Positions 3,437 to 26,352 of a DNA stretch of 30,558 bases are shown in pieces. The number at the start of each line of letters is the position of its first letter. Positions within the stretch are counted from its first letter, which is position 1. The position numbers and the translations under genes are program-made. The notes below the pieces were generated by a model. It searched no databases. It was not told the origin of the DNA and worked only from the letters and a program-made list of their open reading frames with translations. The stretch is from Candidatus Poribacteria bacterium (GTDB lineage: Bacteria; Abyssobacteria; SURF-5), in NCBI GenBank assembly GCA_016215705.1, contig JACRIR010000041.1:1-30558 (forward strand). Direction: 5' to 3'.

Positions 3437-3479
3437 GCATATTCGGGGACACCATGCCACATGGTGTCCCCGAATATGC
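3437..3479. repeat. Palindromic element copy 1 (20-bp perfect arms)
   Basis: The left arm at 3437-3456 and the right arm at 3460-3479 are exact complements around the trinucleotide CCA. The core reads GGGGACACCATG, CCA, CATGGTGTCCCC. It lies between the 3' end of the amidase gene and the promoter of the HPP gene. It belongs to a family with copies near 6035, 8340, 21882, 24159 and 26306. Confidence 0.9.
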
Positions 3480-3509
3480 AGTGACTGCGTTGCCTATTTG
3501 TTATCCGGC

Positions 3510-4946
3510 TCATACCGATACAGAGGGCCGGCGTTCAGCCCATGGCCTGGCTTTTTCAAGCTGAGCGGCAAGGCGGAAGAGCGTCGCCTCATCGCCGAAA
3601 CGGCCGACGAAATGAGTCCCAATGGGCAGGCCGTCGCCGTTCCAGTAAAGCGGAATAGACACGGCAGGCTGTCCGGTTGCATTGAATATCGGGGTGAAGG
3701 GAACATAGTCGCCCGCCCGGAACAGTCCTTGCAGCGGATTCTCCGGTGGAGAATCGAGCGTACCCAAAGGCAGGGGCGGCTCGGCGAGTGTCGGCGTGAG
3801 CAATACATCGTAATCGACCATGAATCGGGCTATCTGCCGGGACACTTGTTGCAGCAGCGTTACAGCCATAACGTAGTCCGGAGCGCTCTGCTGTTTGCCC
3901 ATTTCAGCAACCGCCCACGTGAGCGGCTCGAACTGGTCGGGCGTGGGTGTCCGTCCTGTAATCATCGCAAGTGCCTGCATCATGAATGCCGCCCCGCCGG
4001 CGGTAAACACTGTTATAAACGCCTGATTCAGCGCGGCTGCGTCTAAAGCGGGGGCGGCCTCGGTGACTTCGTGTCCGAGGTCCGCGCAGAGTTTGGCGGC
4101 CTCGCGCACTGCCTTTTTGCAGTCCTCATGCACCGGCACGCCGGTCGGCGAATCAATCATAAACGCGATTCGGAGTTTTCCGGGGTTTGCGCCGACCTCT
4201 TGTATAAAAGGACGCTCTTGAGGCGGAGCCCAGTATGGATCGCCAAGGTCAGGGCCGGCAGTCGCATCGAGCAGGGCAGCGCTGTCGCGGACTGAACGGG
4301 TAACCGCGTGCTCGACGACGAATCCGTTCATCATGTCGCCGAAATCGGGTCCCAGCGGATTTCGACCGCGCGTGGGTTTCAGGCCGAAGAGTCCGCAGCA
4401 TGAAGCCGGGATACGGATTGAACCACCGCCGTCGTTGGCATGCGCGATCGGGACGATTCCGGCGGCAACAGCGGCAGCCGAGCCACCGCTCGAGCCGCCG
4501 GTGGAATGCTTTGTGTTCCAAGGGTTGCGGGCGGGTCCTAAGAGGTGTGATTCGGTCGTTGGCAGGATGCCGAACTCAGGGGTATTGGTCTTTCCTATGA
4601 AGACCAGACCTGCGCGCTTGTGGCGCTTCACCAGTTCACTGTCGTGATCGGGCACAAAGTCTTTCACGAAGGCCGAGCCCGATGTTTGTCGCACTCCGGC
4701 ATACGTGGCCCCGAGGTCTTTTAGAAGGAATGGCACACCAGTAAAAGGCCCGTCGGGTAGTTTGCTTTTGGCGGCTGCGCGTCCTTGCTCATACATCGGT
4801 GTGACCACGGCGTTGAGTTGCGGATTCAGACGCTCGATTCTCTCGATAGCCGCTTCTACCAGTTCAATCGGCTTAACCTCTTTTCGTCGCACCAACTCAG
4901 CCTGGGCGGTGGCGTCGAGAAAGGCGATATCATCCATTTTGCTCAT
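3510..4946 (-). CDS. Amidase-signature family hydrolase
   Basis: The 478-residue enzyme hydrolyses a carboxamide bond by the Ser-cisSer-Lys mechanism. All three residues are visible: K76 in PFLLKDLG, S152 in the GGSSGGS signature (150-156) and nucleophile S176 in [10 protein letters not shown]. Length and overall layout match GatA/6-aminohexanoate-dimer-hydrolase-type amidases. No gatB or gatC neighbour is seen, so a tRNA amidotransferase role is unlikely. The start at 4946 follows AAAGGAG by 8-9 nt. The gene is 46 bp downstream of an ATC-hydrolase-family gene on the same strand, so the two are likely one transcript and may act on consecutive C-N bonds (inference). The natural substrate is unknown. 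Confidence 0.92.
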
Positions 4947-4992
4947 TGTTGCTGCTCCTTTCTTGATGGACCAATGGGGTGATCATGACACA

Positions 4993-5622
4993 TCACTGTA
5001 TTTTGCGCTCATGAATGAATTTACAGAAAGGTTGTCCCTTTTCGATTGTCTTGCCTTTTCCTCCCCTGTGGAAGATGATCTCATTGGGTAGGTAGGCGTT
5101 GTAAAGAGCGTTATCCAGAGTGCAAAAGGGCTCGGTCAGCTCAGGAATTCCCAATTTTGACAAGAAATGATGGATCATGCAAAAGGTGCATCGATATTCA
5201 TAGAGCGTTTCGGTTCGTTCATCCATTTCCACTTTGCTCCATCGGATAGCGCCTTGCCGGTTGCTGATCTCGACGAAATCTATAAAGTTATTCCACGTGC
5301 GCGGAGCTTCCACCAGACAAAACTCCGCTCCATATACAGCCACTCCGAGGGGAATAATAATCGCTCGCGCAAGCGCAAAGGCTTCCTCTTGTCCCATTCT
5401 CTCCTTTAGACGCATATATATCCATGTTGGAAAGGCAAAAAGTTCGACGAAATCATTTGGAATGTCCTTTGGAAGCCGCTTCTTGAAGCGACCCACCGTC
5501 AAAGCGGTTCCCACCAGGAATGCGAGAGGATGATTAACATATTCTCTGAGCACGGAATAGACTATCAAAGCCTTGGAAATCGCACCGAATCGCGCGGGAT
5601 TCTTGACCGTGGTTTTGAGCAT
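4993..5622 (-). CDS. L-2-amino-thiazoline-4-carboxylate (ATC) hydrolase-family protein
   Basis: The 209-residue protein has the pattern of the ATC_hydrolase family (PF14196). A C-terminal half carries the YRCTFCMIHHFL motif, then FCTLDNALYNAY and a terminal GKTIEKGQPFCKFIH strand, with conserved cysteines, histidines and aspartate. ATC hydrolase of Pseudomonas opens L-ATC to N-carbamoyl-L-cysteine; most relatives have unknown substrates. The ATG at 5622 is preceded by GAGGAG, very close, and an AGGT further up. A TTGTAA/TATACT promoter is at 5717-5689. The amidase gene follows 46 bp downstream, which could supply the next hydrolytic step. I recognise the family by motif only, so specific function is low confidence. 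Confidence 0.7.
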   Translation of the reverse strand: MLKTTVKNPARFGAISKALIVYSVLREYVNHPLAFLVGTALTVGRFKKRLPKDIPNDFVELFAFPTWIYMRLKERMGQEEAFALARAIIIPLGVAVYGAEFCLVEAPRTWNNFIDFVEISNRQGAIRWSKVEMDERTETLYEYRCTFCMIHHFLSKLGIPELTEPFCTLDNALYNAYLPNEIIFHRGGKGKTIEKGQPFCKFIHERKIQ

Positions 5623-5688
5623 AGCTCCTCGACCTATCTTTCAAAATCGCGCATATGCATTTTCAGACTATCCGGGATATTTTGGCAA

Positions 5689-5717
5689 AGTATACATCAT
5701 CCGAAAGCTCTTTACAA
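5689..5717 (-). promoter_or_regulatory. Promoter of the ATC-hydrolase/amidase pair
   Basis: On the minus strand TTGTAA (5717-5712) is followed after exactly 17 bp by TATACT (5694-5689), a 4/6 and 5/6 match. The gene start at 5622 is about 60 bp downstream of the predicted start of transcription. Confidence 0.5.
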
Positions 5718-5748
5718 ATGGTCGTTTGCGGTATGAGTCGGCCACCGC

Positions 5749-5777
5749 TTGATTTTTGTCACGTCCGGGGCTATAGT
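5749..5777 (+). promoter_or_regulatory. Promoter of the small membrane protein gene
   Basis: TTGATT at 5749-5754 and TATAGT at 5772-5777 are separated by 17 bp. The predicted transcript would begin near 5784, about 40 nt before the ATG at 5823, which favours that start over earlier in-frame ATGs. Confidence 0.45.
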
Positions 5778-5822
5778 GGATTCGGTGGAACAAGAAGAAA
5801 CAAGGAAGGGAATCGGGCTTCG

Positions 5823-5936
5823 ATGGAGCTTATCGAAAAAGCAAAGCAGTATAAGGCCGAGATTGCGCTGGCGGCCCTTTATATTTATGTTATCATCCTC
5901 GGTGTAGCCACGCTCAAGGAACTCGGCATAATCTGA
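5823..5936 (+). CDS. Small single-helix membrane protein (37 residues)
   Basis: The product begins with a charged, amphipathic stretch (MELIEKAKQYKAEI) followed by one hydrophobic helix of about 20 residues (ALAALYIYVIILGVATL) and ends KELGII. The layout is that of a small bitopic membrane protein. A purine-rich AAGGAAGGGAA lies about 10 nt upstream, and a sigma70-like promoter is suitably placed. Earlier in-frame ATGs at 5655 and 5727 would add residues without membrane or domain character, so I do not use them. I do not recognise a family. It may be a stand-alone membrane peptide, or chance; no neighbour argues for a pathway. Confidence 0.5.
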   Translation: MELIEKAKQYKAEIALAALYIYVIILGVATLKELGII

Positions 5937-5960
5937 ACGTTGTCGCTGCCATTTTTGTAA

Positions 5961-5980
5961 GGGCGCAATGAATTGCGCCT
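5961..5980. repeat. Short palindrome of the GGCGCAAT family
   Basis: GGCGCAAT, a short centre, then ATTGCGCC forms an 8-bp perfect stem. Related copies lie at 8286-8306 (degenerate) and 8392-8411. Both clusters lie within about 80 bp of a GGGGACACC-type palindrome, so the two families tend to accumulate together. Confidence 0.6.
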
Positions 5981-6030
5981 CCACAAAATAGGGGCCGACG
6001 GTGACGTCTATCCCGCCGTATAATGCGCAG

Positions 6031-6126
6031 AAACGGGGACGCGATGTCGCATGGTGTCCCCGATTTTGTGTGTCACGATGTAGCATCATGTTCTCGATTA
6101 CGCCGCTGATGCCGCATCGCGTCCCC
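6031..6126. repeat. Composite palindromic element, copy 2 of the GGGGACACC family
   Basis: GGGGACGCGATG (6035-6046), TCG, CATGGTGTCCCC (6050-6061) is an imperfect copy whose two arms differ. The exact complement of its left arm, CATCGCGTCCCC, is found 53 bp on at 6115-6126 after GATG-CCG. Between them lies a decayed ACGATG-TAG-CATCAT core. The stretch looks like two or three elements whose arms were exchanged or partly lost. It sits between convergent genes, 8 bp from the end of the CooC-like gene. Confidence 0.7.
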
Positions 6127-6133
6127 AATCTTC

Positions 6134-6889
6134 CTAGATATTCAGGCGGTCGGCGATTTCCTTGAGCGCGCGGACGGTGCTCGAGTCGTCGGGCAATTCC
6201 ACCAATGGCCTCCCGTTCCCGTCAAAGTCGTGCACCATATTTTCTTCGGGAATTGCGCCTATTAAAGGAATTCCTATTGCGTCAGCTCGTTTCTTGACCT
6301 CGGCCGGAATTCCGTTGTGCACCCGATTCAGCAGGAGATACATCGAGCCCACGGTGAGCTTGAGTTCTTTCACAAGTTCCACAATTCGCTCTGCTGCAAG
6401 CATCGAGCGCAGTGAGGTGTCGGACACTATGAGCAGGTGATCCATCGTGGTGGTTATGCGACGACTCATGTGCTCCATTCCGGCCTCGTTATCAATCACG
6501 ATTCTGGGGTACTGTTTTGCGAGAATCTTGAGCACGTCGCGGAGCACGTTGTTCGTGAAGCAGTAGCAGCCCGGCCCTTCCGGACGCCCCATGACTACAA
6601 GGTCGAATCCTTTCGCCTCGACCATGCATTCCTGGACCTTCATTTGCAGGTACTCATGCTTCGCCATTCCGGCGGGCAGAGTGCCCGATATCGCCGACAT
6701 ATCTTCGCGGATCGAACCGATCGTTTCACCCACCTGAAGCCCGAAAACTTCGTTGAGGTTCGAGTTTGGGTCGGCATCGACAACGAGGATAGGGCTGCTC
6801 CCTTTCTGCAGCATATATTGAACGAGCAACGCGGAGATGGTCGTTTTTCCCACCCCGCCCTTGCCCGTAACAGCAATCAGTTTTCCCAT
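6134..6889 (-). CDS. cooC: CooC-like nickel-insertion ATPase (paralogue 1)
   Basis: This is a 251-residue MinD/Mrp-type ATPase with a deviant Walker A (GKGGVGKTT, 9-17), including signature lysine K10. It has the VVDADPNSN switch at 37-44 and a C-x-C pair at C108 and C110 in GPGCYCFTNNVLR. The CxC pair followed by NN-x-LR and the IDNEAGMEHMSRR motif are features of CooC/AcsF, dimeric ATPases that help load nickel into CO dehydrogenase or acetyl-CoA synthase. The start at 6889 has AAGGAG nine nt upstream. A paralogue starts 165 bp upstream in the same direction. No CODH or ACS structural gene is in the window, so the client enzyme is inferred from the family. Confidence 0.88.
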   Translation of the reverse strand: MGKLIAVTGKGGVGKTTISALLVQYMLQKGSSPILVVDADPNSNLNEVFGLQVGETIGSIREDMSAISGTLPAGMAKHEYLQMKVQECMVEAKGFDLVVMGRPEGPGCYCFTNNVLRDVLKILAKQYPRIVIDNEAGMEHMSRRITTTMDHLLIVSDTSLRSMLAAERIVELVKELKLTVGSMYLLLNRVHNGIPAEVKKRADAIGIPLIGAIPEENMVHDFDGNGRPLVELPDDSSTVRALKEIADRLNI

Positions 6890-6951
6890 GCGCAGTCTCC
6901 TTAAATGAAGTCAATTAATCCGCAGATTTCCAAGATAAATAAACCTGCTTC

Positions 6952-6985
6952 GGCCACAGAGATCACGGAGGTCATGGAGAAAAGG
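6952..6985. repeat. Dispersed CACAGAGATCAC-type repeat
   Basis: The stretch GCCACAGAGATCACGG followed by AGGTCATGGAGAAAAGG is built of degenerate CACAGAG/CACGGAG steps. This is a class of intergenic repeat I recognise from many bacterial genomes. It lies between the two CooC-like genes. Only one copy occurs here, so the assignment rests on recognition. Confidence 0.4.
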
Positions 6986-7053
6986 CGTTGAATCAGTGTC
7001 AATCTGAAATCCGTGGATAGCGATTCCAATTCGTCTTTACGCTTTCCGCGCGC

Positions 7054-7863
7054 CTAATGCGGTTGCCCTTTTACGCCTTCTGCTATGAGATCAATCACCT
7101 TACCTTTTATCTCTTTCATTTCATTGAAAAAACTTGTGTCTGTATTTCTGAAGAAGTCATACGGGGCTTGTCCTTCGCGGTCCAGCCTCATGAGCTCCCG
7201 ATCATACGATATGTAACCGAGAATCTGATCGGCCTTAAAATTCTGTGTCAGCAAGTCCGCGTCCGCCTTGTCGACCACCTTGTTCATGACAAGGCGCATC
7301 GACTGGATTCCGAGATCGGTCGCAAGCTTCATGATTGCCCGCGCGGTCTCGATACTTCTTTGGCCCGGCTCGACGACAATAATCAGCAAGTCCACTGCTC
7401 GCGCGGTTCCTCTGCCCAAATGCTCGAGGCCCGCCTCCATATCGAGTATCACCGTTTCCTCGCGGTATTCGAGAACCTCTTCCAGGAACCGGCGCAGCAC
7501 GATGTTTTCCGGACAAAGGCATCCGGTTCCGCCCGTATCAAGTGAGCCCATGACGAGGAACTTGACTCCTTCGACGTCGCGGCTGAATTTGTCCGGTATG
7601 TCGTCAACCTTCGGATTCAGTTTGAACACACCTCCGAAACCCTCGCCGCTGCCCGTCCGCTCGCGGATGAAATCCTTCATATCCGCTATTGGTGTAATCG
7701 CGCGGGCGATTTCAGGCACGCATCCGAGGGCGGAAGCAAGGTTGGCATCGGGGTCTGCGTCGATCGCCATCACCCTATAGCCGTCGTCTGCAAGCATGCG
7801 AGCAAGTGTGCCCGCAACCGTAGTCTTTCCCACGCCGCCTTTTCCCACAATCGCAACTTTCAT
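7054..7863 (-). CDS. cooC: CooC-like nickel-insertion ATPase (paralogue 2)
   Basis: This 269-residue ATPase has the deviant Walker A GKGGVGKTT (7-15, signature lysine K8), the AIDADPDANLASALG switch, the C-x-C metal-binding pair C115/C117 in GGTGCLCPENIVLR, and the LDMEAGLEHLGRG motif. These are the classical CooC pattern, with CxCPEN closer to CooC1 than its neighbour's CYCFTNN. Its role would be ATP-driven nickel delivery to CODH (family knowledge). It has its own strong promoter (TTGACA/TATACT at 7949-7920). The second copy lies 165 bp downstream on the same strand. Two different CooC paralogues fit a cell with both a CODH and an acetyl-CoA synthase to mature (inference). Confidence 0.92.
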   Translation of the reverse strand: MKVAIVGKGGVGKTTVAGTLARMLADDGYRVMAIDADPDANLASALGCVPEIARAITPIADMKDFIRERTGSGEGFGGVFKLNPKVDDIPDKFSRDVEGVKFLVMGSLDTGGTGCLCPENIVLRRFLEEVLEYREETVILDMEAGLEHLGRGTARAVDLLIIVVEPGQRSIETARAIMKLATDLGIQSMRLVMNKVVDKADADLLTQNFKADQILGYISYDRELMRLDREGQAPYDFFRNTDTSFFNEMKEIKGKVIDLIAEGVKGQPH

Positions 7864-7919
7864 AACTGTAAATATCCTTATGACTTAGGTTCTTGGTTCA
7901 AAGCGTTGACCTCATGACA

Positions 7920-7949
7920 AGTATAACAATACGCGGGAAGGACTGTCAA
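7920..7949 (-). promoter_or_regulatory. Strong promoter of the CooC-like operon
   Basis: On the minus strand a perfect TTGACA (7949-7944) precedes TATACT (7925-7920) by 18 bp. The leader to the ATG at 7863 is about 50 nt and includes an AAGGAT ribosome site. Confidence 0.75.
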
Positions 7950-8070
7950 AGAGAATCCGACGAATTCACCGACTCTGTTTGACGCTTGGCCGGACCCAAT
8001 GCTACAATAGAGCGTCGGCGAACACCCCGACGAGTAGGGCGTTTGAACTCGCCCCATAGGTATTGGCGCT

Positions 8071-8190
8071 GCAAAATCCCCCCTGGCCCCCTTTGCAAAA
8101 GGGGGGTTACCGGTTTCCTCCCGTATGAAAAGGGGTTTGTAAGACTGTCCGGCGACTCGACCAAAACTCCCCTTTCGTAAAAGGGGACCG
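8071..8190. repeat. CCCCTTT-AAAGGGG dispersed repeat array
   Basis: The block contains CCCCCTTTGCAAAAGGGGG, then a weaker copy around a GTATGAAAAGGGG core, then CCCCTTTCGTAAAAGGGG near 8168-8187, with AAATCCCCCC at the left end. Read in reverse complement it closely matches the in-frame segment at about 20101-20170 inside the second helicase gene. Such elements encode PPF-x-KG-x-RGDF-type peptides when translated. Confidence 0.75.
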
Positions 8191-8339
8191 TTAGGATTTG
8201 AGAAGCTTCTGACACGACGCGGAAGCGTTGCACGCACAGAATTGGGGGATCACAGGCGCACAGCCGCGACCACATGACGCTCATTGGGCGCGATGAATTG
8301 CACGCCTACAGCGCTTCTTTGCTCGTGCCTCGGGAAAAT

Positions 8340-8368
8340 CAGGGACACGATGCAGCATCGTGTCCCTG
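8340..8368. repeat. Palindromic element copy 3 (13-bp perfect arms)
   Basis: CAGGGACACGATG (8340-8352), CAG, CATCGTGTCCCTG (8356-8368) is a perfect stem. Compared with other copies the C of ACACC and its partner G are both changed (ACACG / CGTGT), so pairing is kept by a compensatory change. Flanking AAAAT and GTTTT extend the symmetry imperfectly. Confidence 0.85.
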
Positions 8369-8391
8369 GTTTTCTTGAGGCATGCGTGTAA

Positions 8392-8411
8392 GGGCGCAAT
8401 TCATTGTGCCC
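8392..8411. repeat. Short palindrome of the GGCGCAAT family
   Basis: GGGCGCAAT (8392-8400), TC, ATTGTGCCC pairs with one G-T mismatch. A further degenerate copy, GGGCGCGAT-GAATTGCACGCC, lies at 8286-8306. The family also appears at 5961-5980. Confidence 0.55.
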
Positions 8412-8472
8412 TCGTGATTCACATTCGTGAGGTTTGCGCAAGAAATGAGGGCAAGGATTCGCGATTTCGAAC

Positions 8473-9954
8473 GTGAGCAGCACAGGGGAGGAATCCGAAC
8501 TTTTGGATAATGATTACAGAGAAAACATGAACCGGCTGTTCTACCCGAGGGGTATCGCGGTCATAGGCGCGTCAGATAACTTTGCCAGGGGCTCGAGCAT
8601 GTTCCTGTACAGCCTCATCGGCCTCAAGTATCCTGGTGGCCTCTACCCGGTCAACATAGTCGCCGACGGCACAATAATGGGGCTTCCGGCATATAAGAGG
8701 GTGACGGATATCGCCGGCCCGGTCGACTATGCGATCATCGGTGTGCCTGCTCCCATAACGCGTGAGGTCCTGGCTGATTGCATACAGAAGGGAGTGCCGT
8801 ACGCACATTTCTTCACCGCCGGCTTCAAGGAGCTCCAGACCGAGGAAGGAGAACGCCTCGAGAGGGAACTCGTCGATATGGCTCGCGGGAAGATCAGGCT
8901 CATCGGGCCGAATTGCATGGGGGTCTACTGCTCGGAGGCGCGAGTCGGCTTTGACGCCAACCATCCGACTGAACCGGGAGAGGTTGCGTTCATCTCGCAG
9001 AGCGGCGGGCATGCAATCAACTTCATCCGCTGCGCGGCTGAGCGCGGCCTCACTCTCAGCAAGGCCGTCAGCTATGGCAACGCAAGCGATCTGTCATCAA
9101 GCGATTTCCTCGAGTACTTTGCTGAAGACCCAAAGAGCGCCGTCGTCGGCATTTATATTGAAGGCGCAAAAGAGGGGCGGTCTTTTTTCGAGACGTTGAA
9201 GAAGGCGGCGAGGAATAAGCCGGTCATAATCTGGAAAGGCGGCCGCACTGCGGCGGGAACTCACGCTGCCAGCGGCCATACGGGCGCGCTCGCGGGCTCC
9301 TTCGACATCTGGAAAGGAATGAGCAAGCAGACGGGCGCCGTCCTCGTGAACGACAGTGACGAAATGATCGACCTCATGCTTGGCCTCAAGTACCTCCCGT
9401 TGCCAAAAGGACTCAACACGGCCCTTGTCTGCACGGGCGGCGGCAACAGCGTGGTCGCCTCGGATCAATGCAACGAACTCGGCTTGAAACTCCCACCGCT
9501 CGCCGACGACATTCAGCGCGAGTTACTCACGATCCTGCGTGAGGCGGGAACGATAAGAAAGAATCCGGTTGACGCGAGCGCTCATGGGATCATTCCTCAT
9601 AACGTTGTAAGGATTGTCGAGATTATCGAACGAGCCCCAAACATCGATTGCGTCCTGTTCACGTATCAGTTGTATTTTCTTGTGAGGAACCTCAAGCGCA
9701 TCGGGATTTCCTTGGATGATGCTCTGGACCATCTCATAGCAGCGCTTGGGAACGCCAAGAATAATGTGTCTAAACCACTCGCATTCGCCCTCGCTCGCGA
9801 TTCCGATGAGCTCGAGGTGGAAGAAGTGCGACTTACTCTTAAGGAAAGGTTGCTCAAGGTTGGTGTTCCTGCGTTTGACTCCGTGAGAGCGGCCTCTTTG
9901 GCGCTTATCAGGATGAATCAACTCAGAGAATATCGCGAGCGCAATTCGCCATGA
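8473..9954 (+). CDS. ADP-forming acyl-CoA synthetase alpha-like protein (CoA-binding / succinyl-CoA-ligase domains)
   Basis: The 493-residue protein has an N-terminal CoA-binding Rossmann domain (GIAVIGASDNFARGSSMF; IGPNCMGVY), then two flavodoxin-like succinyl-CoA-ligase domains. The phospho-histidine motif SGHTGALAG has H269, and E230 lies in IYIEG. Their 39-residue spacing equals that of His257 and Glu218 in archaeal acetyl-CoA synthetase alpha. Such enzymes interconvert acyl-CoA, ADP and phosphate with acid, CoA and ATP. The ATP-grasp (beta) part is absent and no beta gene is adjacent. The GTG at 8473 lacks a well-spaced ribosome site; a TTG at 8503, 10 nt after AGGGGAGGA, or the ATG at 8527 may be the true start. 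Its stop overlaps the next start (ATGA). Confidence 0.87.
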   Translation: MSSTGEESELLDNDYRENMNRLFYPRGIAVIGASDNFARGSSMFLYSLIGLKYPGGLYPVNIVADGTIMGLPAYKRVTDIAGPVDYAIIGVPAPITREVLADCIQKGVPYAHFFTAGFKELQTEEGERLERELVDMARGKIRLIGPNCMGVYCSEARVGFDANHPTEPGEVAFISQSGGHAINFIRCAAERGLTLSKAVSYGNASDLSSSDFLEYFAEDPKSAVVGIYIEGAKEGRSFFETLKKAARNKPVIIWKGGRTAAGTHAASGHTGALAGSFDIWKGMSKQTGAVLVNDSDEMIDLMLGLKYLPLPKGLNTALVCTGGGNSVVASDQCNELGLKLPPLADDIQRELLTILREAGTIRKNPVDASAHGIIPHNVVRIVEIIERAPNIDCVLFTYQLYFLVRNLKRIGISLDDALDHLIAALGNAKNNVSKPLAFALARDSDELEVEEVRLTLKERLLKVGVPAFDSVRAASLALIRMNQLREYRERNSP

Positions 9955-11009: not shown

Positions 11010-11073
11010 GTATCTGCGCTTATTGCAGGGAGTCGTATCCACTCGCTTTTCCATTTCTTTCGTCTTTCGCCTC

Positions 11074-11970: not shown

Positions 11971-12160
11971 GAGTCTTACTCCTGTCCAATTAAGCGGCCA
12001 ACCTGCCTCCAAGAAGTAGCCAACCTGCCTGCAAGGTAATCTTGAGCAAAAAGAAGAATCTCGTGAGGTAACATCAAAGACATCAGTTTAAACTTATTAC
12101 TTGCCCGGGCGGGGTTGGGAAACAAAACCAGATTGGTAAGAAACAAGGAGGATGGAAGGA

Positions 12161-12898: not shown

Positions 12899-12925
12899 TT
12901 TCCCCCACCTGATTTAGACGCAACA

Positions 12926-12954: not shown

Positions 12955-12961
12955 TCCGGAT

Positions 12962-13014: not shown

Positions 13015-13061
13015 TCTGCGCTTTAGGCGCCTTGGCTTACTTTAGAAGCCTCGCACTTCTC

Positions 13062-18580: not shown

Positions 18581-21500
18581 GTTCAAGCCCAATGAGGGGC
18601 AGCGGCGCGCCATCGAGTTCGACATCGACAAGCCGCTGAAAGTGGTCGCCGGCGCGGGAACGGGGAAGACGGCCGTGCTTGCGCATCGCTTCATCCATCT
18701 CGTCGAGAAGCGATGCATCTCCCCGCATCGCATCCTTTGCCTGACATTCACCAAGAAGGCGGCGGCGGAGATGCAGGCGAGGATCACCCGCGAGTTGCTG
18801 GAGCGCGAGTTCATGAGCCGGGCCGAGGCCCCGCTGCTCCTATGGATCGGCAACTTTCACTCCATTTGTCTCCGGCTCTTGAGACAAAGACCGCTTCTCG
18901 TGGGCCTGGACCCGCTGTTCGGAGTCATAGAGGAGGCCGAGCAACGCCTGCTCTTGAACGAAACCGCCCATGATTTCTTGAACGGAAAACTGGGAGCAGG
19001 CGTTGACTCCTCTCGCTTTGACACCTTGATGATCAACCGGGTCGAAGATTTCACCGACAACATTCTCACCGTCATCAGTCGCGTGAAAGACCATTTCATC
19101 GCCGTAGAAGACCTCAAGCAGAACGGCTCCGCCATACTGGCTGAGCAGTATAGAATTGTAGAGGAGACACTGAAGTCAAATGTCAGCAGCGCCAAGAGAG
19201 CGGACAGCCGGAGGAAGGCGGAGCGTTCACTGGATGCGATGCCTGCGTCGAAGGCATACGAGCAGCTTCTATTGGACGCCGTCTACGAGATTTACAAGGA
19301 ATACCAGTCAAGATTGGAGAGAAACGACATCCTCGATTTCAGCGATATCGTATTCCAGGCGTTCCGGCTGACGCGGATCGACCCTGCCATAAGGAGTCGG
19401 TTCGACTATATTCTGGTCGATGAATTTCAGGACACTGATAACGGGCAATATCAACTGCTAAAGGCCTTGAGCAACGACTTCAAGAATGTTACCGTCGTCT
19501 GCGACAAGAAGCAGTCCATATATGAATGGAGAGAAGCCCGGCCCGAGAACATCGACAGTTTCCCGGGGACGGAAATCGCGCTTGACGAGAACTACCGTTC
19601 CTTTGGCGAAATACTCGAAGCGGCGAATCATTTCATCAAGGAGTCTATGCCGGAGCAAAAGGCGCTGAGGCCGGCCGGGCAGGGAGGACGAGGCTGGACT
19701 GCTGAACCTCAAGTCAGATTGTTCCGCGCCAAAGACTGCGAGGAGGAATCTGAATTTGTCGCCTGCGAGATTCAGCGACTCTTCGATTCCGATGGCCGCA
19801 AACCTTCCGACGTGGCGATCTTGATGCGCAGCGTCCATGCGGCAAGGTCTTACGAAGACGCTTTGAGGCTCCTCGGGATCAGATACAAGACGGTCGGCGG
19901 TTGTGGTTTCTATGAGCTCAACGAGTCGAAGGATGTTCTTGCACTCCTGGGACTGATAGCGAATCCGTTCGACGACCTCTCAATGGCTCGCGTCCTGACC
20001 AGCCCGATTGTTGGACTGAGCGACGCAACGCTGTATGAGTTGTGCAAAGCCAAGAACGAAGCGGAAAGGGGGAAGCAAACTGAGAGAACGCCCATTAGTT
20101 CCTCTTTATCAAAAGGAGAAGCAAGTTGTTCCCCCCTTTACAAAAGGGGTGTGAGGGAGGATTTTGCAGAACAAGAATCGTGCCGCGTATTCTTGCAACG
20201 GATTACCAGCATTTACGACGTTATGAAAGAGAAGCGGGAGCTAGTCGAAACATTTCGGTCGGAAACGCGGAACAGGCTATGGCATCTCACAAGTGTCATC
20301 GACAAACTCGCAAATGGACGGTGGGCTCTTACAATCGGCGAGCTCATTTCGGAGACGCTCGGCTATACGGGATACCTCAAATACCTCACTTCGATCGAAG
20401 GCCCGCGAGGCCCTCGCTTCTCCAACGTCGCACTCTTCTATCGAATCGCGACCTCGTTCGAGGAGGCGCATCCGGGGGCCGGGCTCGAAGAGTTCCTTTC
20501 CTACGTGGACGAGGCCATGGCCGGCGACGCCGGCGCTGTTGCCTCTGATCCTACTCTTGATGCCGTTCAAATCATGACCGTTCATCAAGCGAAGGGGCTC
20601 GAATTCCCCGTTGTGTTCGCAGTGAATCTGCGGAGTCATTCGTTTCCACTCTCGTTTCGCGCAAACCGCTTCGGGTACGACGAGGATTTCGGTCTTTTTG
20701 CGCGAACAATTTCGGAAGACGTCTTCGGCGCAAGATACAAGGGCGCCAACGGGATTGACATCGAGGACTCCCTGAAGGGAAAGCATTATGGCGAAGAAAA
20801 GCGGGTGATGTATGTTGCAATGACTCGCGCCAAGGAACTTCTTTATCTCACAACGTCCGCCCCAGCAAGAGAAGAAAAAGAAAAGAAGAAAGGGAAAGAG
20901 GATTCGGTTGACTTCTTCGAGTATATCCGAAAGTCCGCGTCTCAAGCCGGCAACCGATACGCCGAGGAAGTGACAATGATTCCTCTTGTGGCAAGGCCTC
21001 CGAATCCGCAGCCGGCGCCGGCAACGAGCATGGATGTCGAGGACATCAAGAGAATAGCGACTGAAGTTCTCGCCAGAATCTCGCAGCCTCCTGCGGTCAA
21101 GGTCGCGGGCGGGGCAGAAGTCCTTACGCTCAGCTATTCGCGACTCTCGGTATACCGCCAGTGCCCGATGAAATACGCGCTTCGCTATGTTTACAATCTT
21201 CCCCTCTCGCCACATGGCGAGGCGGAAGACGAATTTCACCCGCATGGCGGCGTCGACGCGGTCGTTCTCGGGAACCTCATGCACAAAGCCTTGATGCAAT
21301 ATCATAGGCGGCGAAAAGCAGACCCGCGCGTTGACGCATGGAGAATCCTTGCCGAACTTTCTCGCGCCTCCGATTGTCCGAGAGATGTTGCACGGGCAGC
21401 TCAAGGCATGATGAAGAAATATCTGGTTTCTACTCTTTCGCGTATCGATACTCTCTCTGAGGAAAAGGAGTTCCATTGGCGGCTCAAAGAAGGCGCTCTC

Positions 21501-21857
21501 CAAATACTCTTGGAAGGAAAGATCGACCGCATACATCGTGAAGGAGACTCGCTCAAAGTCGTGGACTACAAGACCGGCCTCAGCGATGCCGAAGGACACA
21601 GGCTGCAACTGGGCATTTACCGTCTAGCGATGGAATCAGTTCTCGGAACAAGCGGCATTTTGACAAGCGACTGTTACCTCTCGACCGGCGAGGAAATAGA
21701 GCAGCGGTTCACTACGGAAGAACTGAGCGATATTCGCAACGACATTCTCGATGACGCGCGAAAGATTGCGAGCGGGGACTTCTCGGTAGACAAGAAGGGG
21801 AGCGATGAGGACGGTGACTGCCACGGCTGCGAATACAAAACTTTTTGTCCTTCCTGA
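18561..21857 (+). CDS. AdnB-like UvrD helicase fused to RecB-type Fe-S nuclease
   Basis: This 1098-residue partner has motif I AGAGTGKT (30-37), Ia LTFTKKAAAEM, II VDEFQDTD (D287), III CDKKQSIYEWREA, IV DENYRS, V TVHQAKGLEFP (about 672) and VI EEKRVMYVAMTRA (about 745). The nuclease domain has D989 and D1002-Y-K1004, with cysteines C868, C1087, C1090 and C1096 for an Fe-S cluster. Motif III lacks the usual GD-x2-QSIY-x-FRGA details (GD to CD, RGA to REA). Together with the upstream gene it would form a heterodimeric end-resection machine with two motors and two nucleases, as in mycobacterial AdnAB. The ATG at 18561 is 3 nt after AGGAG; ATG 18570, 12 nt after it, is an alternative. Residues about 512-538 derive from a dispersed repeat. 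Confidence 0.91.
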   Translation: MTKMSGEFKPNEGQRRAIEFDIDKPLKVVAGAGTGKTAVLAHRFIHLVEKRCISPHRILCLTFTKKAAAEMQARITRELLEREFMSRAEAPLLLWIGNFHSICLRLLRQRPLLVGLDPLFGVIEEAEQRLLLNETAHDFLNGKLGAGVDSSRFDTLMINRVEDFTDNILTVISRVKDHFIAVEDLKQNGSAILAEQYRIVEETLKSNVSSAKRADSRRKAERSLDAMPASKAYEQLLLDAVYEIYKEYQSRLERNDILDFSDIVFQAFRLTRIDPAIRSRFDYILVDEFQDTDNGQYQLLKALSNDFKNVTVVCDKKQSIYEWREARPENIDSFPGTEIALDENYRSFGEILEAANHFIKESMPEQKALRPAGQGGRGWTAEPQVRLFRAKDCEEESEFVACEIQRLFDSDGRKPSDVAILMRSVHAARSYEDALRLLGIRYKTVGGCGFYELNESKDVLALLGLIANPFDDLSMARVLTSPIVGLSDATLYELCKAKNEAERGKQTERTPISSSLSKGEASCSPLYKRGVREDFAEQESCRVFLQRITSIYDVMKEKRELVETFRSETRNRLWHLTSVIDKLANGRWALTIGELISETLGYTGYLKYLTSIEGPRGPRFSNVALFYRIATSFEEAHPGAGLEEFLSYVDEAMAGDAGAVASDPTLDAVQIMTVHQAKGLEFPVVFAVNLRSHSFPLSFRANRFGYDEDFGLFARTISEDVFGARYKGANGIDIEDSLKGKHYGEEKRVMYVAMTRAKELLYLTTSAPAREEKEKKKGKEDSVDFFEYIRKSASQAGNRYAEEVTMIPLVARPPNPQPAPATSMDVEDIKRIATEVLARISQPPAVKVAGGAEVLTLSYSRLSVYRQCPMKYALRYVYNLPLSPHGEAEDEFHPHGGVDAVVLGNLMHKALMQYHRRRKADPRVDAWRILAELSRASDCPRDVARAAQGMMKKYLVSTLSRIDTLSEEKEFHWRLKEGALQILLEGKIDRIHREGDSLKVVDYKTGLSDAEGHRLQLGIYRLAMESVLGTSGILTSDCYLSTGEEIEQRFTTEELSDIRNDILDDARKIASGDFSVDKKGSDEDGDCHGCEYKTFCPS
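20099..20171 (+). repeat. CCCCTTT-AAAAGGGG dispersed repeat captured in frame in the AdnB-like gene
   Basis: The segment contains CTCTTTATCAAAAGGAG and CCCCCCTTTACAAAAGGGG, ending GGAGGATTTTGCAG. It matches the reverse complement of the intergenic array at 8071-8110 closely, including the terminal GATTTTGCA. It is translated as SSLSKGEASCSPLYKRGVREDFAEQ with no stop or frameshift and lies between motifs IV and V of the helicase. Confidence 0.8.
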
Positions 21858-21869
21858 TGGGGGACATCA

Positions 21870-21920
21870 CGCCGCATAATCGGGGACACCGTGCCGCATG
21901 GTGTCCCCGATTATGCGGCG
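21870..21920. repeat. Palindromic element copy 4 (21-bp perfect arms)
   Basis: The arms 21870-21890 and 21900-21920 are exact complements and extend the common core with CGCCGCATAATC. The centre is GTG-CCG-CAT. It lies 12 bp after the AdnB-like stop, between convergent genes, so it may also act as a bidirectional transcript-end hairpin. It has no T-run. Confidence 0.9.
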
Positions 21921-21932
21921 CCGGCAGTTTCC

Positions 21933-22355
21933 TTATGGTTTGATCTCCTTTCGCCGCTCATCCGGACGATAGTGCATCCCGCGTCGCTGGGCCATGTTCT
22001 CTTTCTCTATCTGGCTCTTCAAGGTCTTGAGTTCTTCGTTCACTTCTTGCGACATGCGCAGCTTGCAGCGGTCACAGAGCGTGCCGGTCGTAATCGGTTT
22101 GCCGCATGAGTTGCATTTCACTGATTCTGAGACCTCTTTCATCGACAAACGTTTCTGTCTGATCCATCTCAGGATATCGGCTTCTTCGATGTTCGTCGCT
22201 TTGCTCAAAGTCGTAACATTCCGGCCGGGATTGTCACGCAACCAGCGCACGGCGGCCTGAAAGTCGGCTTCCTCCTTTTGGGCGCATTGAGGGCACAAGG
22301 GGTTGTTCGTCCGAGAGAAGACAGTGCCACACTTCAGACAGTTGCCAAGAGGCAT
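21933..22355 (-). CDS. YvyF-like double zinc-ribbon protein
   Basis: The 140-residue protein has two C-x2-C pairs at the N-terminus (C6, C9, C21, C24 in NCLKCG...CPQC). A helix-turn-helix-like middle follows (NVTTLSKATNIEEADILRWIRQKRL), then a second zinc ribbon (C81, C84, C94, C97). Order and length resemble the YvyF/TIGR03826 family, which in Bacillus lies in the flagellar flgM locus. A regulatory or assembly role is only inferred, and no flagellar gene is seen here. AAAGGAG lies about 10 nt before the ATG. The gene starts one nucleotide after the stop of the upstream membrane-protein gene, so the three genes from 23963 form one operon. Confidence 0.75.
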   Translation of the reverse strand: MPLGNCLKCGTVFSRTNNPLCPQCAQKEEADFQAAVRWLRDNPGRNVTTLSKATNIEEADILRWIRQKRLSMKEVSESVKCNSCGKPITTGTLCDRCKLRMSQEVNEELKTLKSQIEKENMAQRRGMHYRPDERRKEIKP

Positions 22356-22356
22356 A

Positions 22357-22701
22357 TCATTGCTCTCCTTTTATGGAATCAGATGCCTTTTCTTGCGGCG
22401 GTTCGCTGATCTGCGGAGATTCGCCAGCCTGCGCAGCATCGCCTTCGGCGCCGCGCCCGCGGTTTTCTTCAATCATCTTGTTCGCGAACCAGGCCGCAAA
22501 CTGGAGACCCGCAAAGACCACCACGTACACGAAAACAGCGCCTGCGATTCCGCGTTTGAACGTGGTAGACGGCGGAATATCCGGGCCGGACCCGAAGCTG
22601 ATCATCAGACCCAGCCAGAGCAATGCCGCAGCGATAGCGGCTGCATCAATCAGGTTGGTATGGCGGAAGCTCTGGGGTTGCCGGCGGTCGAATTTCAGCA
22701 T
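22357..22701 (-). CDS. Two-helix membrane protein of unknown function
   Basis: From the ATG at 22701 the product is 114 residues. After a short basic N-terminus (MLKFDRRQPQSFRHTN) come two hydrophobic helices (LIDAAAIAAALLWLGLMISF and IAGAVFVYVVVFAGLQFAAWFA) and a hydrophilic acidic tail of about 40 residues (about 76-114) rich in Glu, Pro and Gln. Its ATG shares one base with the upstream TAA (TAATG), a coupling arrangement. I therefore reject an in-frame ATG at 22728 inside the preceding gene. I do not recognise a family; it may anchor or partner the FecR/GspG-like protein made from the same transcript. Confidence 0.7.
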   Translation of the reverse strand: MLKFDRRQPQSFRHTNLIDAAAIAAALLWLGLMISFGSGPDIPPSTTFKRGIAGAVFVYVVVFAGLQFAAWFANKMIEENRGRGAEGDAAQAGESPQISEPPQEKASDSIKGEQ

Positions 22702-23963
22702 TACCGGTAGTTCTTGCCGTCCTCCCACCGTCGGGCGTCTTCTTCTTTGATGATTTTTTGCCGGTCGTCGTTTGTGCCCGGGGTTTGGTCGTAGCCGTAG
22801 GTCGTTATTTCGGCAAATACATTGCCATGCGCATCGGTGAGCACGGCGTAGACGTAAGGAACTCCATAGTGGTCCCGTATGGTTTCAGGCGAGCAATATG
22901 GGCCATTCCATTGCGGCACGCCGGTCATACTGATAAGCGCCTTCAATCCGCCTTCCTTGACTGTCGGGAACCTTGCAAAATCAAGATAGAACATCTTCAG
23001 AGCTTTGTCAATCTGGAAAAAGTCCTCGGCCGCTTTCTCCCACCCAGCCTGGATCGCGTCATAAACCTGCTGTCGCTGCGCTTCCGGAAGCCCTGGTTGA
23101 ATCTCGATTTCCTCGACTTGTCCAATTCCGGCCAGAGCCGTGACCGACTTGAAGGACTCTGATCTCTCCATCCATTCCTCCACTACCTGCACGATCCATG
23201 CAAGCAATTCAGACGGTCCAAACTTTCTTGGCTCTTGCCCGGCCTTGACAATCAGGGCCTCTCGTTTGTTCAGGATCATCTCCGGCGCAGCCACGCCTTT
23301 GGAGCCGACGGCGACCTGACCAGAGAGCACCGAAACGCTGGTGTCGGCCGTCGCTTTCTCGACCTCTACGAGGAAGACTGTCCCGCGCACTCCCGTGACT
23401 GCCGTGGGCGTCTCGACCTCGAATTTGGAGTCTTTTGTCTTCAGCCGCCCCACTTCCGACCAAAGCTTTCCTTCGGGCAAATCGATCTTGATCTTCGCTG
23501 CTTTCGTTTCCGGTTCCTGCTCGAAATGCTTAATTGTGAATTGACTGTTTGCTCCGATTCCGCTGATGGCCATTGTCTCAAGGGTTACCACGACTTCCGA
23601 ATCCGGTCCCGTGCGGATTTCGTCACCCGGATTCACACTCATATGTTTGAATGCGGTCACAAATCGAGGCATCCCAGCCTTCTTTATCTCCGCCGTCCCC
23701 TTTATGCTTTCGATTCTCCCCTTGCCGGGAACCGTTCCGTGGGGGTCTACCTTGTCCTTCTGCATGTTGAAGATGATCCGGCCGCCGCCGGGAAGGTCTG
23801 TGCCGACCCGATAAACTTTATCCGCTTCTCCCAGAATCTTGCCCGGAATCTTCTTCCCAGTAGGCGTTTGCAGCGCTGCGCCAAAAACTTGTCCGCCAAG
23901 GAGCATGGATAGCGCCATACACAAGAAAAACGCCGCGAAATTGAGTACCCTCTTGATTTGCAT
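22701..23963 (-). CDS. Exported FecR-domain protein with C-terminal GspG-like domain
   Basis: The 420-residue protein has an N-terminal signal sequence (MQIKRVLNFAAFFLCMALSMLLGG, cut near 29). A FecR-type domain follows at about 83-245, with the characteristic strands VNPGDEIRTGPDSEVVVTL, the KLWSEV-x-RLKTKDSKFEVETPTAVTGVRGT core and VLSGQVAVG. The C-terminal 100 residues resemble the type II secretion major pseudopilin GspG after its helix: DFARFPTVKEGGLKALI, WNGPYC, YGVPYVYA, TTYGYDQTPGTNDD. The pseudopilin N-terminal methylation motif is absent. It is first of three coupled genes. Ligand sensing at the envelope or binding of a surface polymer are possible; function is not known. Confidence 0.82.
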   Translation of the reverse strand: MQIKRVLNFAAFFLCMALSMLLGGQVFGAALQTPTGKKIPGKILGEADKVYRVGTDLPGGGRIIFNMQKDKVDPHGTVPGKGRIESIKGTAEIKKAGMPRFVTAFKHMSVNPGDEIRTGPDSEVVVTLETMAISGIGANSQFTIKHFEQEPETKAAKIKIDLPEGKLWSEVGRLKTKDSKFEVETPTAVTGVRGTVFLVEVEKATADTSVSVLSGQVAVGSKGVAAPEMILNKREALIVKAGQEPRKFGPSELLAWIVQVVEEWMERSESFKSVTALAGIGQVEEIEIQPGLPEAQRQQVYDAIQAGWEKAAEDFFQIDKALKMFYLDFARFPTVKEGGLKALISMTGVPQWNGPYCSPETIRDHYGVPYVYAVLTDAHGNVFAEITTYGYDQTPGTNDDRQKIIKEEDARRWEDGKNYR

Positions 23964-24035
23964 CTCAGTGGCCTGTTCAGTTGCCTTCAGATCTCAGACT
24001 TTGGACTTCCTTGCGCCGGTCCAGTTCCAATAACA

Positions 24036-24060
24036 TAAAAAGGGGCATCATGCCCCTTTC
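24036..24060 (-). terminator. Rho-independent terminator downstream of the glycerate kinase gene
   Basis: On the minus strand AAAGGGGCAT / ATGCCCCTTT forms a GC-rich hairpin followed by TTTTTA. It lies about 140 bp beyond the glycerate-kinase stop and upstream of the FecR gene, so it should insulate the two operons. In the plus direction the T-run is only three long. Confidence 0.75.
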
Positions 24061-24158
24061 CCCGAGCTGGAACCGTGCCAGTTATGTTTCAAGTCGGCAG
24101 ACTTTCAATGATAAGTTTACCATACGAAACGAGTTCTGTCAATTTCGCACGGGCGATC

Positions 24159-24195
24159 ATTCCGGGGACACCATGCCTCATGGTGTCCCCGGAAT
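24159..24195. repeat. Palindromic element copy 5 (17-bp perfect arms)
   Basis: ATTCCGGGGACACCATG (24159-24175), CCT, CATGGTGTCCCCGGAAT (24179-24195) is a perfect stem. It starts 6 bp beyond the stop of the glycerate-kinase gene and could stabilise the transcript end. Confidence 0.9.
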
Positions 24196-24201
24196 AGTCG
24201 C

Positions 24202-25533
24202 TTATCCGATCAGTGCAACAATCAAATCCATTACATTTGTGCCGGTTGGGCCGGTTATCACAAGGTCGCCGATCGGAGCGAGCAGATGATATGAATCATT
24301 GTTTCTCAGGTATTGAGCAGGGTCAAGTTCGAGGCGTTTGGCGCGCTCGAGAGTCGTTGTGTCGACGACGGCGCCGGCGGCGTCAGTCGGCCCATCTGCG
24401 CCGTCTGTGCCGACGCTCGCGACCACGATTCTTCTTGCTCCTGCCAGCCTGATGGCCGCTGAAAGGGCGAGTTCCTGGTTGCGTCCGCCTTTTCCCTCGC
24501 CCCGGACGGTGACGGTCGTCTCGCCTCCCGCCAGGATGCAGGCCGGCGGCGCGATGGGGTAGCCGGAAATTTCAGATTCGATAGCTATAGAGGCAAATAT
24601 GCCGCCGACCTCCCTAGCCTCACCGCATATACGTGTGGAAAGAACGAGAGAATGAAAGCCGAGTGAAGATGCGCGCTTCGAGGCGGACTCAACAGCGGTC
24701 CGATTGCTGCCAATGATAACGTTGCAGACGTTTTCAAAAATCCTTTCGCCAGGCTTTGGCGTTTCCGGAATCTCTCCCCTCAAGCCTTTTTCGAGGAACT
24801 CGCGCACTGTCGTCGGTGTCTGCTCCCAGACTTCATGCTTCTTCAAGACAGCGACTGCATCGGAAAACGTCGAAGGGTCCCCGACCGTCGGTCCTGAGGC
24901 GATCACTTCGATCTGGTCGCCTATGACATCCGAGAGGATTAGCGAAAACAACTTGGCTGGGAACGCCGCCCTTGCGAGTTGGCCCCCCTTGATTTTCGAT
25001 ATATGCTTGCGCACAATATTGATCTCGTCGACAGTCGCTCCGCAACGCAGCAGTAAACCCGTGGTTTGTTGTTTGGCCGACAATGGTATCGCGCTTGCAG
25101 GCAGAGACATCAGCGCAGAGCCGCCGCCCGAGATGAGGCACAACACAAGAGTGTTTGCGTTCGCGTGGTCCTGGAGCAGCGAAAGAATCCGTCCCGCCGC
25201 CTCGACACCGCGCTCATCCGGCACTGGATGTCCCGCCTCCGCGAGTTCAAGCTTCTTCAGCGGGGACCTGTTTCCGTCCTGGACAATCACCAGACCGCCA
25301 TTTACCCTATCGCCGAGTATGCTTTCGATCGCCTTTGCCATCGCCGCGCCGGCCTTGCCGGCGCCGACTACCAGGATTTTTCTGAAGCCGGATAAGTCGA
25401 CGCTGTTCGCTCCAATCGCGAGTCGGCCATCCTCGAGTCTGACCATACGGTGTATCAGTGTTTCAGGATCAACGGACTTCAAGGCGGCCGACACGATCTC
25501 TCGTGCAGCTTGGCGGAGCTCGTTCAGTTTCAT
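24202..25533 (-). CDS. Type-2 (MOFRL) glycerate 2-kinase / TtuD-like
   Basis: The 443-residue protein matches the GckA/TtuD/MOFRL family: an N-terminal KILVVGAGKAGAAMAKAIE glycine loop, CLISGGGSALMS, GGQLARAAFPAKLFSLILSDVIGD, and the C-terminal MOFRL core GEGKGGRNQELALSAA with GTDGADGPTDAAGA. Such enzymes phosphorylate D-glycerate to 2-phosphoglycerate with ATP; early annotations call them hydroxypyruvate reductase. I place the start at the ATG at 25533 (MKLNELRQ), preceded by GAGGTGG. An in-frame ATG at 25596 would add 21 residues encoded by an intergenic palindromic repeat (CFRLRGNDRE). A PHP-phosphoesterase gene ends 69 bp upstream, so co-transcription is likely. Confidence 0.93.
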   Translation of the reverse strand: MKLNELRQAAREIVSAALKSVDPETLIHRMVRLEDGRLAIGANSVDLSGFRKILVVGAGKAGAAMAKAIESILGDRVNGGLVIVQDGNRSPLKKLELAEAGHPVPDERGVEAAGRILSLLQDHANANTLVLCLISGGGSALMSLPASAIPLSAKQQTTGLLLRCGATVDEINIVRKHISKIKGGQLARAAFPAKLFSLILSDVIGDQIEVIASGPTVGDPSTFSDAVAVLKKHEVWEQTPTTVREFLEKGLRGEIPETPKPGERIFENVCNVIIGSNRTAVESASKRASSLGFHSLVLSTRICGEAREVGGIFASIAIESEISGYPIAPPACILAGGETTVTVRGEGKGGRNQELALSAAIRLAGARRIVVASVGTDGADGPTDAAGAVVDTTTLERAKRLELDPAQYLRNNDSYHLLAPIGDLVITGPTGTNVMDLIVALIG

Positions 25534-25557
25534 CTTGTTGTCCACCTCTACCTTCTC

Positions 25558-25592
25558 TCTATCATTCCCGCGAAGGCGGAAGCACATCCGAT
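25558..25592. repeat. ATTCCCGCGAAGGCGGAA-type palindromic repeat
   Basis: ATCATTCCCGCGAAGGCGGAAGCACATCC is the widespread TCATTCCCGCGAA intergenic repeat that I recognise from many proteobacterial genomes. Related copies lie at 26272-26300 (TCATTCCCTCAAAAACGGGAATCCA, as two pieces) and 28186-28213 (reverse orientation). Here it precedes the glycerate-kinase start and is translated only if a wrong upstream ATG is used. Confidence 0.7.
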
Positions 25593-25602
25593 TCAATCAG
25601 CT

Positions 25603-26262
25603 TCACCTTGCGGTCTTTCCCGGCAGGCTAAGGCGATGATATGTTCCGTCTGGTTGCAGACGCGCTGGAGCCACCCGTCCCGCCCGTATCTCTTTGATGA
25701 GGTCTGCGACCGTGGCCACGCTTTTCTCGAACCATGTTGCGCATCTGCCTACTTCGCTCGCAAAATGGCAATCGCTGCCCGCTGTGCCCGGAATCCTCAG
25801 TCTTTCCCATGCCTTGATGGCCTGGTTATTCTCATGCTCTTTGTTTTCTCCGTTCAGCACCTCGAGCGCCGTGATGTAGTTCATCGCAAACAACCCGTCT
25901 GAGGCGGAGGCTGCGCCGACGACTCTGAACGGGTGCGCCGGAATCAGAATGCCTCCGCATGCTTTCACCTTCGGTCTCACCGACTCCATGCGCGAGTAGT
26001 ATCCGCTGTCGGTTTTCCATGAGTCGTCGATCAATCCGAACGAAAGCGTGTGACCCTTATCGGTGTTTATCTCAACGCCTCTGAGCACGAGAAAGTTTTC
26101 CTTCTCCGCTATCCTCGCAACTGGCTCTGACGCGCAAAAAGAATCGTGCTCGGTGACGCAAATGGCGTCGAGACCTCTCTCCCGCGCCATTCGTATCAGA
26201 TCAACAGGCTCGAGATTATTATCTCCCGAATACTTGGTGTGACAATGAAGGTCAATAAGCAT
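25603..26262 (-). CDS. PHP-domain metal-dependent phosphoesterase
   Basis: The protein of about 219 residues has the four PHP motifs that supply metal ligands: DLHCHTKYSGD at the N-terminus, CVTEHDSF, PAHPFR in the middle and GTAGSDCHFASEVG near the end. This composition matches the stand-alone PHP family (as in TrpH-like 5'-3' exonucleases or nucleoside-bisphosphate phosphatases); the substrate cannot be told. I take the ATG at 26262 (MLIDLHCHT), spaced from AAAAGGTGA, over an in-frame GTG at 26268 that lies inside the ribosome site. It precedes the glycerate-kinase gene and follows a NUDIX gene across a palindromic element. Confidence 0.9.
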   Translation of the reverse strand: MLIDLHCHTKYSGDNNLEPVDLIRMARERGLDAICVTEHDSFCASEPVARIAEKENFLVLRGVEINTDKGHTLSFGLIDDSWKTDSGYYSRMESVRPKVKACGGILIPAHPFRVVGAASASDGLFAMNYITALEVLNGENKEHENNQAIKAWERLRIPGTAGSDCHFASEVGRCATWFEKSVATVADLIKEIRAGRVAPARLQPDGTYHRLSLPGKTAR

Positions 26263-26273
26263 AATCACCTTTT

Positions 26274-26299
26274 ATCATTCCCTCAAAAACGGGAATCCA
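26274..26299. repeat. Second copy of the ATTCCC-type palindromic repeat
   Basis: TCATTCCCTCAAAAACGGG-AATCCA pairs TTCCC with GGGAA around a CTCAAAAAC-like centre, a degenerate copy of the element at 25558-25592. It directly abuts the GGGTACGCC-type palindrome at 26299-26349. Confidence 0.6.
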
Positions 26300-26349
26300 A
26301 CTTGTTCGGGTACGCCATGCCGCATGGCGTACCCGAGTAAGGACAAGTT
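26299..26349. repeat. Palindromic element copy 6 with compensatory changes
   Basis: TCGGGTACGCCATG (26306-26319), CCG, CATGGCGTACCCGA (26323-26336) is a perfect 14-bp stem. Outer arms AACTTGT (26299-26305) and ACAAGTT (26343-26349) extend it past a short bulge. Two positions of the common core (GGGGACACC to GGGTACGCC) are changed, and both partners in the other arm are changed to match. Confidence 0.9.
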
Positions 26350-26352
26350 TTC

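Follow-up and report, generated by a model that had tools for sequence, protein, structure and literature searches.

Intergenic hairpins in a "Candidatus Poribacteria" genome are probably non-autonomous REP-like mobile elements of the TIRYT kind

The closest described systems to the repeats reported here are the TIRtrons, in which RAYT-like Y1 transposases (TIRYTs) have TIRs with the motif GGGGWSAS and which include some self-complementary repeat families (PMC3733652; PMC6006769). Among 26 published TIRYTs, 20 belong to TnpA_REP subclass 2.1, with a C-terminal HTH/DnaA-like domain, and 6 to other subclasses (PMC6006769). A second point of comparison is provided by the RAYT-associated REPs and REPINs (PMC2817692; Bertels and Rainey 2011, PMC3116915), which are short intergenic palindromes with hundreds of copies, few of them in divergent gaps, and with an HUH Y1 transposase; compensatory changes have also been reported for REPINs (PMC3116915). 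The hairpin family described here, from a "Candidatus Poribacteria" genome in a sparsely sampled phylum, resembles REPs and REPINs in these respects, including the compensatory stem changes. It is like the TIRtrons (Di Nocera et al. 2013, PMC3733652) in its many self-complementary copies, in the fit of GGGGACAC, at the arm end, to GGGGWSAS, and in the related sequences that form inverted ends around a RAYT-like Y1 transposase gene. It differs from them in that no transposase gene was found with the exact core, in the many compensated types of its outer arms, and in abundance, with about 400 copies against the "moderately abundant" published repeats (PMC3733652). We conclude that this is probably an unusually abundant new family in the known TIRYT/TIRtron class, and that its members are probably REP-like mobile elements that are non-autonomous and consist of self-complementary TIR hairpins of the TIRYT/RAYT (Y1 HUH) kind.

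The window, a stretch of 30,558 nucleotides analyzed in full, contains all six palindromes of one family that had been proposed from its sequence, along with a degenerate partial copy (Table 1). The shared core given for them in the original prediction, GGGGACACCATG-NNN-CATGGTGTCCCC, is exact in copies 1 and 5 only; the others depart from it by 1 mismatch (copy 4), 2 mismatches (copy 2), or 4 mismatches (copies 3 and 6). Four window copies match the core within 3 mismatches, against none in shuffled windows. Copies 3 and 6 depart from the core by changes on both arms, and the double changes claimed for them are real: copy 6 has G->T/C->A and A->G/T->C, and copy 3, a member of the ACG/CGT class, has a compensated A/T foot. 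Single-stranded DNA folding gave z-scores of -8.5 to -11.4 for five of the six copies (copy 1, -23.9 kcal/mol and z -11.4), the exception being copy 2, whose core has two broken pairs (GGGGACGCGATG/CATGGTGTCCCC). Five copies sit in gaps, as had been stated for all of them, and occupy all three gap types (the tandem gap of copy 1 is flanked by genes at 2722-3315(-) and 3510-4946(-)), but the copy at 6035 lies inside a 138-aa ORF, which scores low and is unlikely to be a gene. No Rfam family matched the window. Upstream of copy 3, at 8060-8250, are repeats of the CCCCCTTTGCAAAAGGGGG kind, and similar stretches occur elsewhere in the genome.

Table 1. Palindromes and associated repeats in the window
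Feature	Coordinates	Strand	Description
Copy 1	3437..3479	.	Perfect palindrome, 20-bp perfect arms, CATATTC outer arm
Copy 2	6023..6073 (core 6035-6061)	.	Imperfect palindrome, decayed; fold z -3.0
Degenerate partial seventh copy	6069..6095	.	Adjoins copy 2; 8 mismatches to core
Copy 3	8326..8382	.	GAAAATC/GGTTTTC class, ACACGATG core, 28-bp arms, divergent gap
Composite	8286..8411	.	Inverted GTAG-tagged REP-like units (GGGCGCGATGAATTGCACGCCTACA ... GTAAGGGCGCAATTCATTGTGCCC) either side of copy 3
Copy 4	21870..21920	.	25-bp arms, convergent gap 21858-21932
Copy 5	24153..24201	.	Tandem gap 23964-24201
Copy 6	26301..26341	.	Compensated variant GGGTACGCC/GGCGTACCC, tandem gap 26269-26352

The family extends well beyond the window, contrary to the scarcity elsewhere in the genome that would have refuted the original prediction. 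The 5.47-Mb genome contains 385 copies of the core at up to 3 mismatches, with none for a reversed control pattern, and 390 copies at up to 2 mismatches with C or G at position 5. The genome-wide density is thus about 1 per 14 kb, and the predicted one per 5 kb holds locally. About 48 of the 61 strongest hairpins in 412 kb of the genome belong to this family. So does every one of the 140 GGGGWC hairpins that have 10 or more perfect base pairs in a 1.9-Mb sample, the stretches of which were partly picked for holding copies and do not have the average copy density of the genome.

The repeat unit is one symmetric hairpin with a 3-nt loop and a stem of about 20 bp beyond it. Its center is usually ATGC-N-GCAT, so that pairing is unbroken up to the loop. 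By distance from the central base, pairing is 82 to 97% at positions 2 to 20 and 73% at position 21, and it reaches background by position 24. C-G and G-C pairs are about equally frequent at position 5, positions 6 to 13 are nearly fixed as GGGGACAC in nearly all copies, and positions 14 to 20 form an A+T-rich outer arm with [CT]TTATTC / TAATTC and GAAAATC as the main types, plus many others. The family has the extragenic location and the more than 100 copies typical of REPs, but no unpaired GTAG or CGTC tag is conserved beside the stem, and we therefore rejected an identity as GTAG/CGTC REPs. REPINs are doublets of tagged, inverted hairpins with a spacer that form one long hairpin; the unit here is a symmetric single hairpin, although a minority of copies lie within a GTAG REP pair. 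MITEs of IS200/IS605-like elements are likewise gene-less relatives of element ends, but in the present repeats the two ends make up a single fused hairpin, with no internal sequence.

Several other arrangements were observed around or beside the family. About 10% of copies, mostly of the GAAAATC class, adjoin or are enclosed by REP-like units (GGGGCGCAATTCATTGCGCCC) that are inverted and GTAG tagged and are separate repeats; this nesting, with a minority of hairpins inside a GTAG REP pair, occurs around copy 3 (8286-8411) and also at L037, L124, L128, L153, and L156. Tandem arrays of half hairpins with a 29-bp period were found at L216:18101-18263 and L218:5010-5180, in which each unit comprises one arm, the loop, and 4 to 5 bases of the other arm and the array ends with a full hairpin; a similar spacing of 30 to 33 bp is seen at Elusimicrobia loci L083, L103, and L105. 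One chimeric copy (L038:15738) has a left arm of CTTATTC and a right arm of GATTTTC, as if two classes had recombined at the hairpin center. The genome also has a second hairpin family, GTAGGGGCACGGCG/CGCCGTGCCCCTAC, with several copies in 412 kb (L021:14750, L025:6034, L032:18394, and L037:7331).

The two arms covary far more than independent mutation would produce. In an alignment of 58 sequences, 92.6% of cells were paired (77.8% when shuffled) and 158 cells were changed on both sides (58 when shuffled); none of 500 shuffles reached either observed value, and sliding the partners by 1 to 3 columns lowered pairing to 36 to 46%. Across 1.9 Mb, 144 of 214 copies had perfectly complementary outer arms, representing 41 different sequences, whereas randomly re-paired arms gave 13 and at most 23. 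The claim that the stem rather than the sequence is maintained describes the outer arms (positions 14 to 21 from the center); in the inner GGGGACAC the sequence, too, hardly varies. Fifteen full-arm haplotypes have two or more copies and thus constitute separate lineages. Palindromes of one class stop at about position 21, and copy-specific extension beyond it is near chance, as independent arms would give, so the arms look inherited by lineage and not remade at each site. That result bears on hairpin-templated mutation (quasipalindrome correction by template switching at the replication fork), which would restore complementarity in place, without selection, and would account for unique double changes in single copies such as copy 6. 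The half-hairpin arrays beside full hairpins, which suggest replication slippage at stems, also point in this direction. Single changes in the core outnumber double changes 90 to 16, however, so correction is not efficient, and many outer-arm haplotypes are multi-copy, i.e., inherited; together with the near-chance extension, these observations make templated mutation an improbable source of the complementarity.

Genes were placed with a simple coding-potential gene caller in the 1.9 Mb, and 196 of 206 placeable copies (∼95%) proved to be intergenic, against 16.5% noncoding sequence. Divergent gaps held 22 copies where 44 were expected (p 5e-5), tandem gaps held 150 (expected, 134), and convergent gaps held 24 (expected, 18), which is the published pattern for REPs (PMC3733652). 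The A-tract/T-tract class has 14 of 45 copies in convergent gaps and the TTATTC/TAATTC class has 3 of 94 (p 9e-6). Because of this overrepresentation, the A-tract/T-tract class may double as bidirectional terminators. The earlier view that the palindromes are not simply terminators thus fits the TTATTC class, which has no T-run after the stem, but fits the A-tract/T-tract class less well; a T-run is loosely present in the AAAAT/ATTTT class, which is enriched in convergent gaps. Bidirectional intrinsic terminators share with the family a G+C-rich stem and, in one class, A-tract/T-tract flanks with a preference for convergent gaps, but most copies here lack a T-run and all gap types are occupied.

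These placements could also reflect selection on an RNA hairpin in transcripts, as a stabilizer of mRNA 3' ends or a terminator, that keeps the stem after insertion. The intergenic location, the avoidance of divergent gaps, the convergent-gap class, and the position of 95 of the 150 tandem copies nearer the upstream stop than the next start would all agree with such a function. A selected RNA stem should, however, prefer G-U mismatches, and in transcript orientation the tandem copies have 57 G-U and 68 A-C mismatches (p 0.37); given this lack of G-U bias, the data agree better with a hairpin of DNA than with one of RNA. The main class (TTATTC/GAATAA) is also without a T-run, and the orthologous gaps of related genera hold no copies. 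We consider RNA-level selection unlikely as the reason that the stem persists. The original prediction offered two options, selection on an RNA or DNA hairpin and an element moving in hairpin form; the evidence favors a mobile DNA hairpin.

The presence of the hairpin is lineage specific. Two genera of the same family have no copies. Four of the gaps that hold hairpins in the window have conserved gene order around them in at least one of these genera, and the hairpin is absent from all four comparable orthologous gaps, the presence/absence difference expected of a mobile element. Because the sequences of the related genera have diverged too far in these gaps, neither a target duplication nor an exact empty site could be demonstrated. 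In G002, the gap that corresponds to window 23964-24201, the site of copy 5, has instead a different gene-less GGGGTCAG TIR element, with inverted GGGGTCAGACCTTGAAAATTGACAA ends (L201:5643-5735).

In other phyla the distribution is patchy and tracks a specific transposase subfamily. A few Elusimicrobia MAGs carry the exact core, with a maximum of 138 copies in X2_MetaBAT.4, and an Acidobacteriota MAG has a single copy. The Elusimicrobia hairpins have only 13-bp arms, with common asymmetric flanks (GGTAC / CGCTGATGCGG), which makes the symmetric outer arm a trait of the present genome. At up to 1 mismatch, the core was found in only 7 of 340 Elusimicrobiota genomes, and the three with the most copies are the three with the closest transposases (at least 77% identity). 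A transposase relative at E<=1e-40 is present in 6 of the 7 copy-bearing genomes and in 39 of the 340 overall, an association that may be inflated by the kinship of the three genomes, as the counts ignore relatedness; G064 has 4 to 16 copies without a close transposase. Among viral contigs, none has the core with C and one has it with G. On the phage-like contig IMGVR_UViG_3300046652_000019, one GGGGACACGATG hairpin lies between two short genes (L191:4652-4678), in what looks like a phage structural cluster, and a phage is a possible vehicle. A gene-less GGGGACACAATACC pair was also seen in an Elusimicrobium (L094, about 93-171). The very high sequence conservation of GGGGACACNATG and its wide spread over the genome would suit sites that a structural or DNA-binding protein of the host recognizes and that, having spread by conversion or by chance, were retained for this function. 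Such sites should not be missing from genera of the same family, appear with an identical core in a few genomes of a distant phylum, or have covarying outer arms, and we regard this explanation as very unlikely.

The RAYT/Y1 transposase suggested as a partner is present in the genome with related ends but not with the exact core. There are three Y1 genes. Two, on contig C28, are copies of one transposase that are 97% alike and each lie between TTATTCCGGGGACATAATACCTATTT and its complement; a contig end cuts the first, and contig breaks inside multi-copy elements are common. The C28 gene is bounded by TTATTCCGGGGACATAATACC. Its ends have TTATTC and GGGGACA in common with the commonest repeat class but a different inner arm (ATAATACC), and the inner arm of C28 itself, GGGGACATAATACC, repeats only at the transposase copies in the 1.9 Mb. 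The 220-aa protein is above the PF01797 cut-off and conserves both the HUH motif (NHVH, in NHVHLI) and the Tyr in RYVERNPV; it scores 56 against the NCBIfam cut-off of 80 for REP-associated transposases. Unlike most published TIRYTs, which have a C-terminal HTH, it contains no C-terminal HTH or DnaA-like domain. The third gene, C225, does encode a DnaA-like C-terminal domain (HTH) and has GGGGTCAGG ends.

The C28 protein is 55 to 58% identical to Elusimicrobia proteins, and the genes of three Elusimicrobia relatives are flanked by full hairpins (GGGGACACAATACCTATTTC...GAAATAGGTATTGTGTCCCC). The ends of related genes vary around GGGGACAC (AATACC, ATCACT, and, in L282, CATACG); the ends are GGTGACACCATACGG in L275 and GAATTCCGGGGACACCATACG in L282, and one related transposase has ends AATTCCGGGGACACCATACG. 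L282 has GGGGACACCATACG, and its end is identical to the repeat core over GGGGACACCAT and then differs (ACG versus GC). No transposase with exactly GGGGACACCATGC ends was found at any Y1 locus examined in this or the other searched genomes. Across the Y1 loci compared for end type (L016, L053, L055, L060, L065, and L112 versus L018, L056, L067, L110, L111, and L117), longer proteins (about 285 to 325 aa) mostly have GGGGTC ends and short ones (about 220 to 240 aa) mostly GGGGAC, with L114 (320 aa, GGGGAC) as an exception. Based on the related ends and the association among genomes, we infer that the C28-type subfamily may move the element.

Under this mobile-element interpretation, a Y1 HUH transposase (IS200-like, TnpA_REP-like) would recognize the hairpin when the DNA is single stranded, the conserved part that it reads being GGGGACAC in the stem, and would copy or move the hairpin into intergenic gaps, mostly away from promoters. 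The arms would stay complementary because only foldable copies are moved on; source lineages would drift by compensated steps, and fixed copies would decay. The A-tract/T-tract part of the family was probably tolerated or taken over as bidirectional terminators. A more specific version is tentative: the ∼43-bp single-stranded DNA hairpin, with its ends fused, could itself be the mobile unit, moved in trans by a short TIRYT, with compensated stem lineages selected for folding alone, and it could have crossed phyla with its transposase.

To our knowledge, REP-like repeats outside Proteobacteria are poorly described. The present family is an unusually clean case, with hundreds of copies, tens of compensated stem types, and a candidate transposase, to which are added related genera without the hairpin and the occurrence of the same core in a distant phylum. 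Sequence data from this family can be used to test whether REP hairpins are kept folded by mobility, by an RNA function, or by templated repair.
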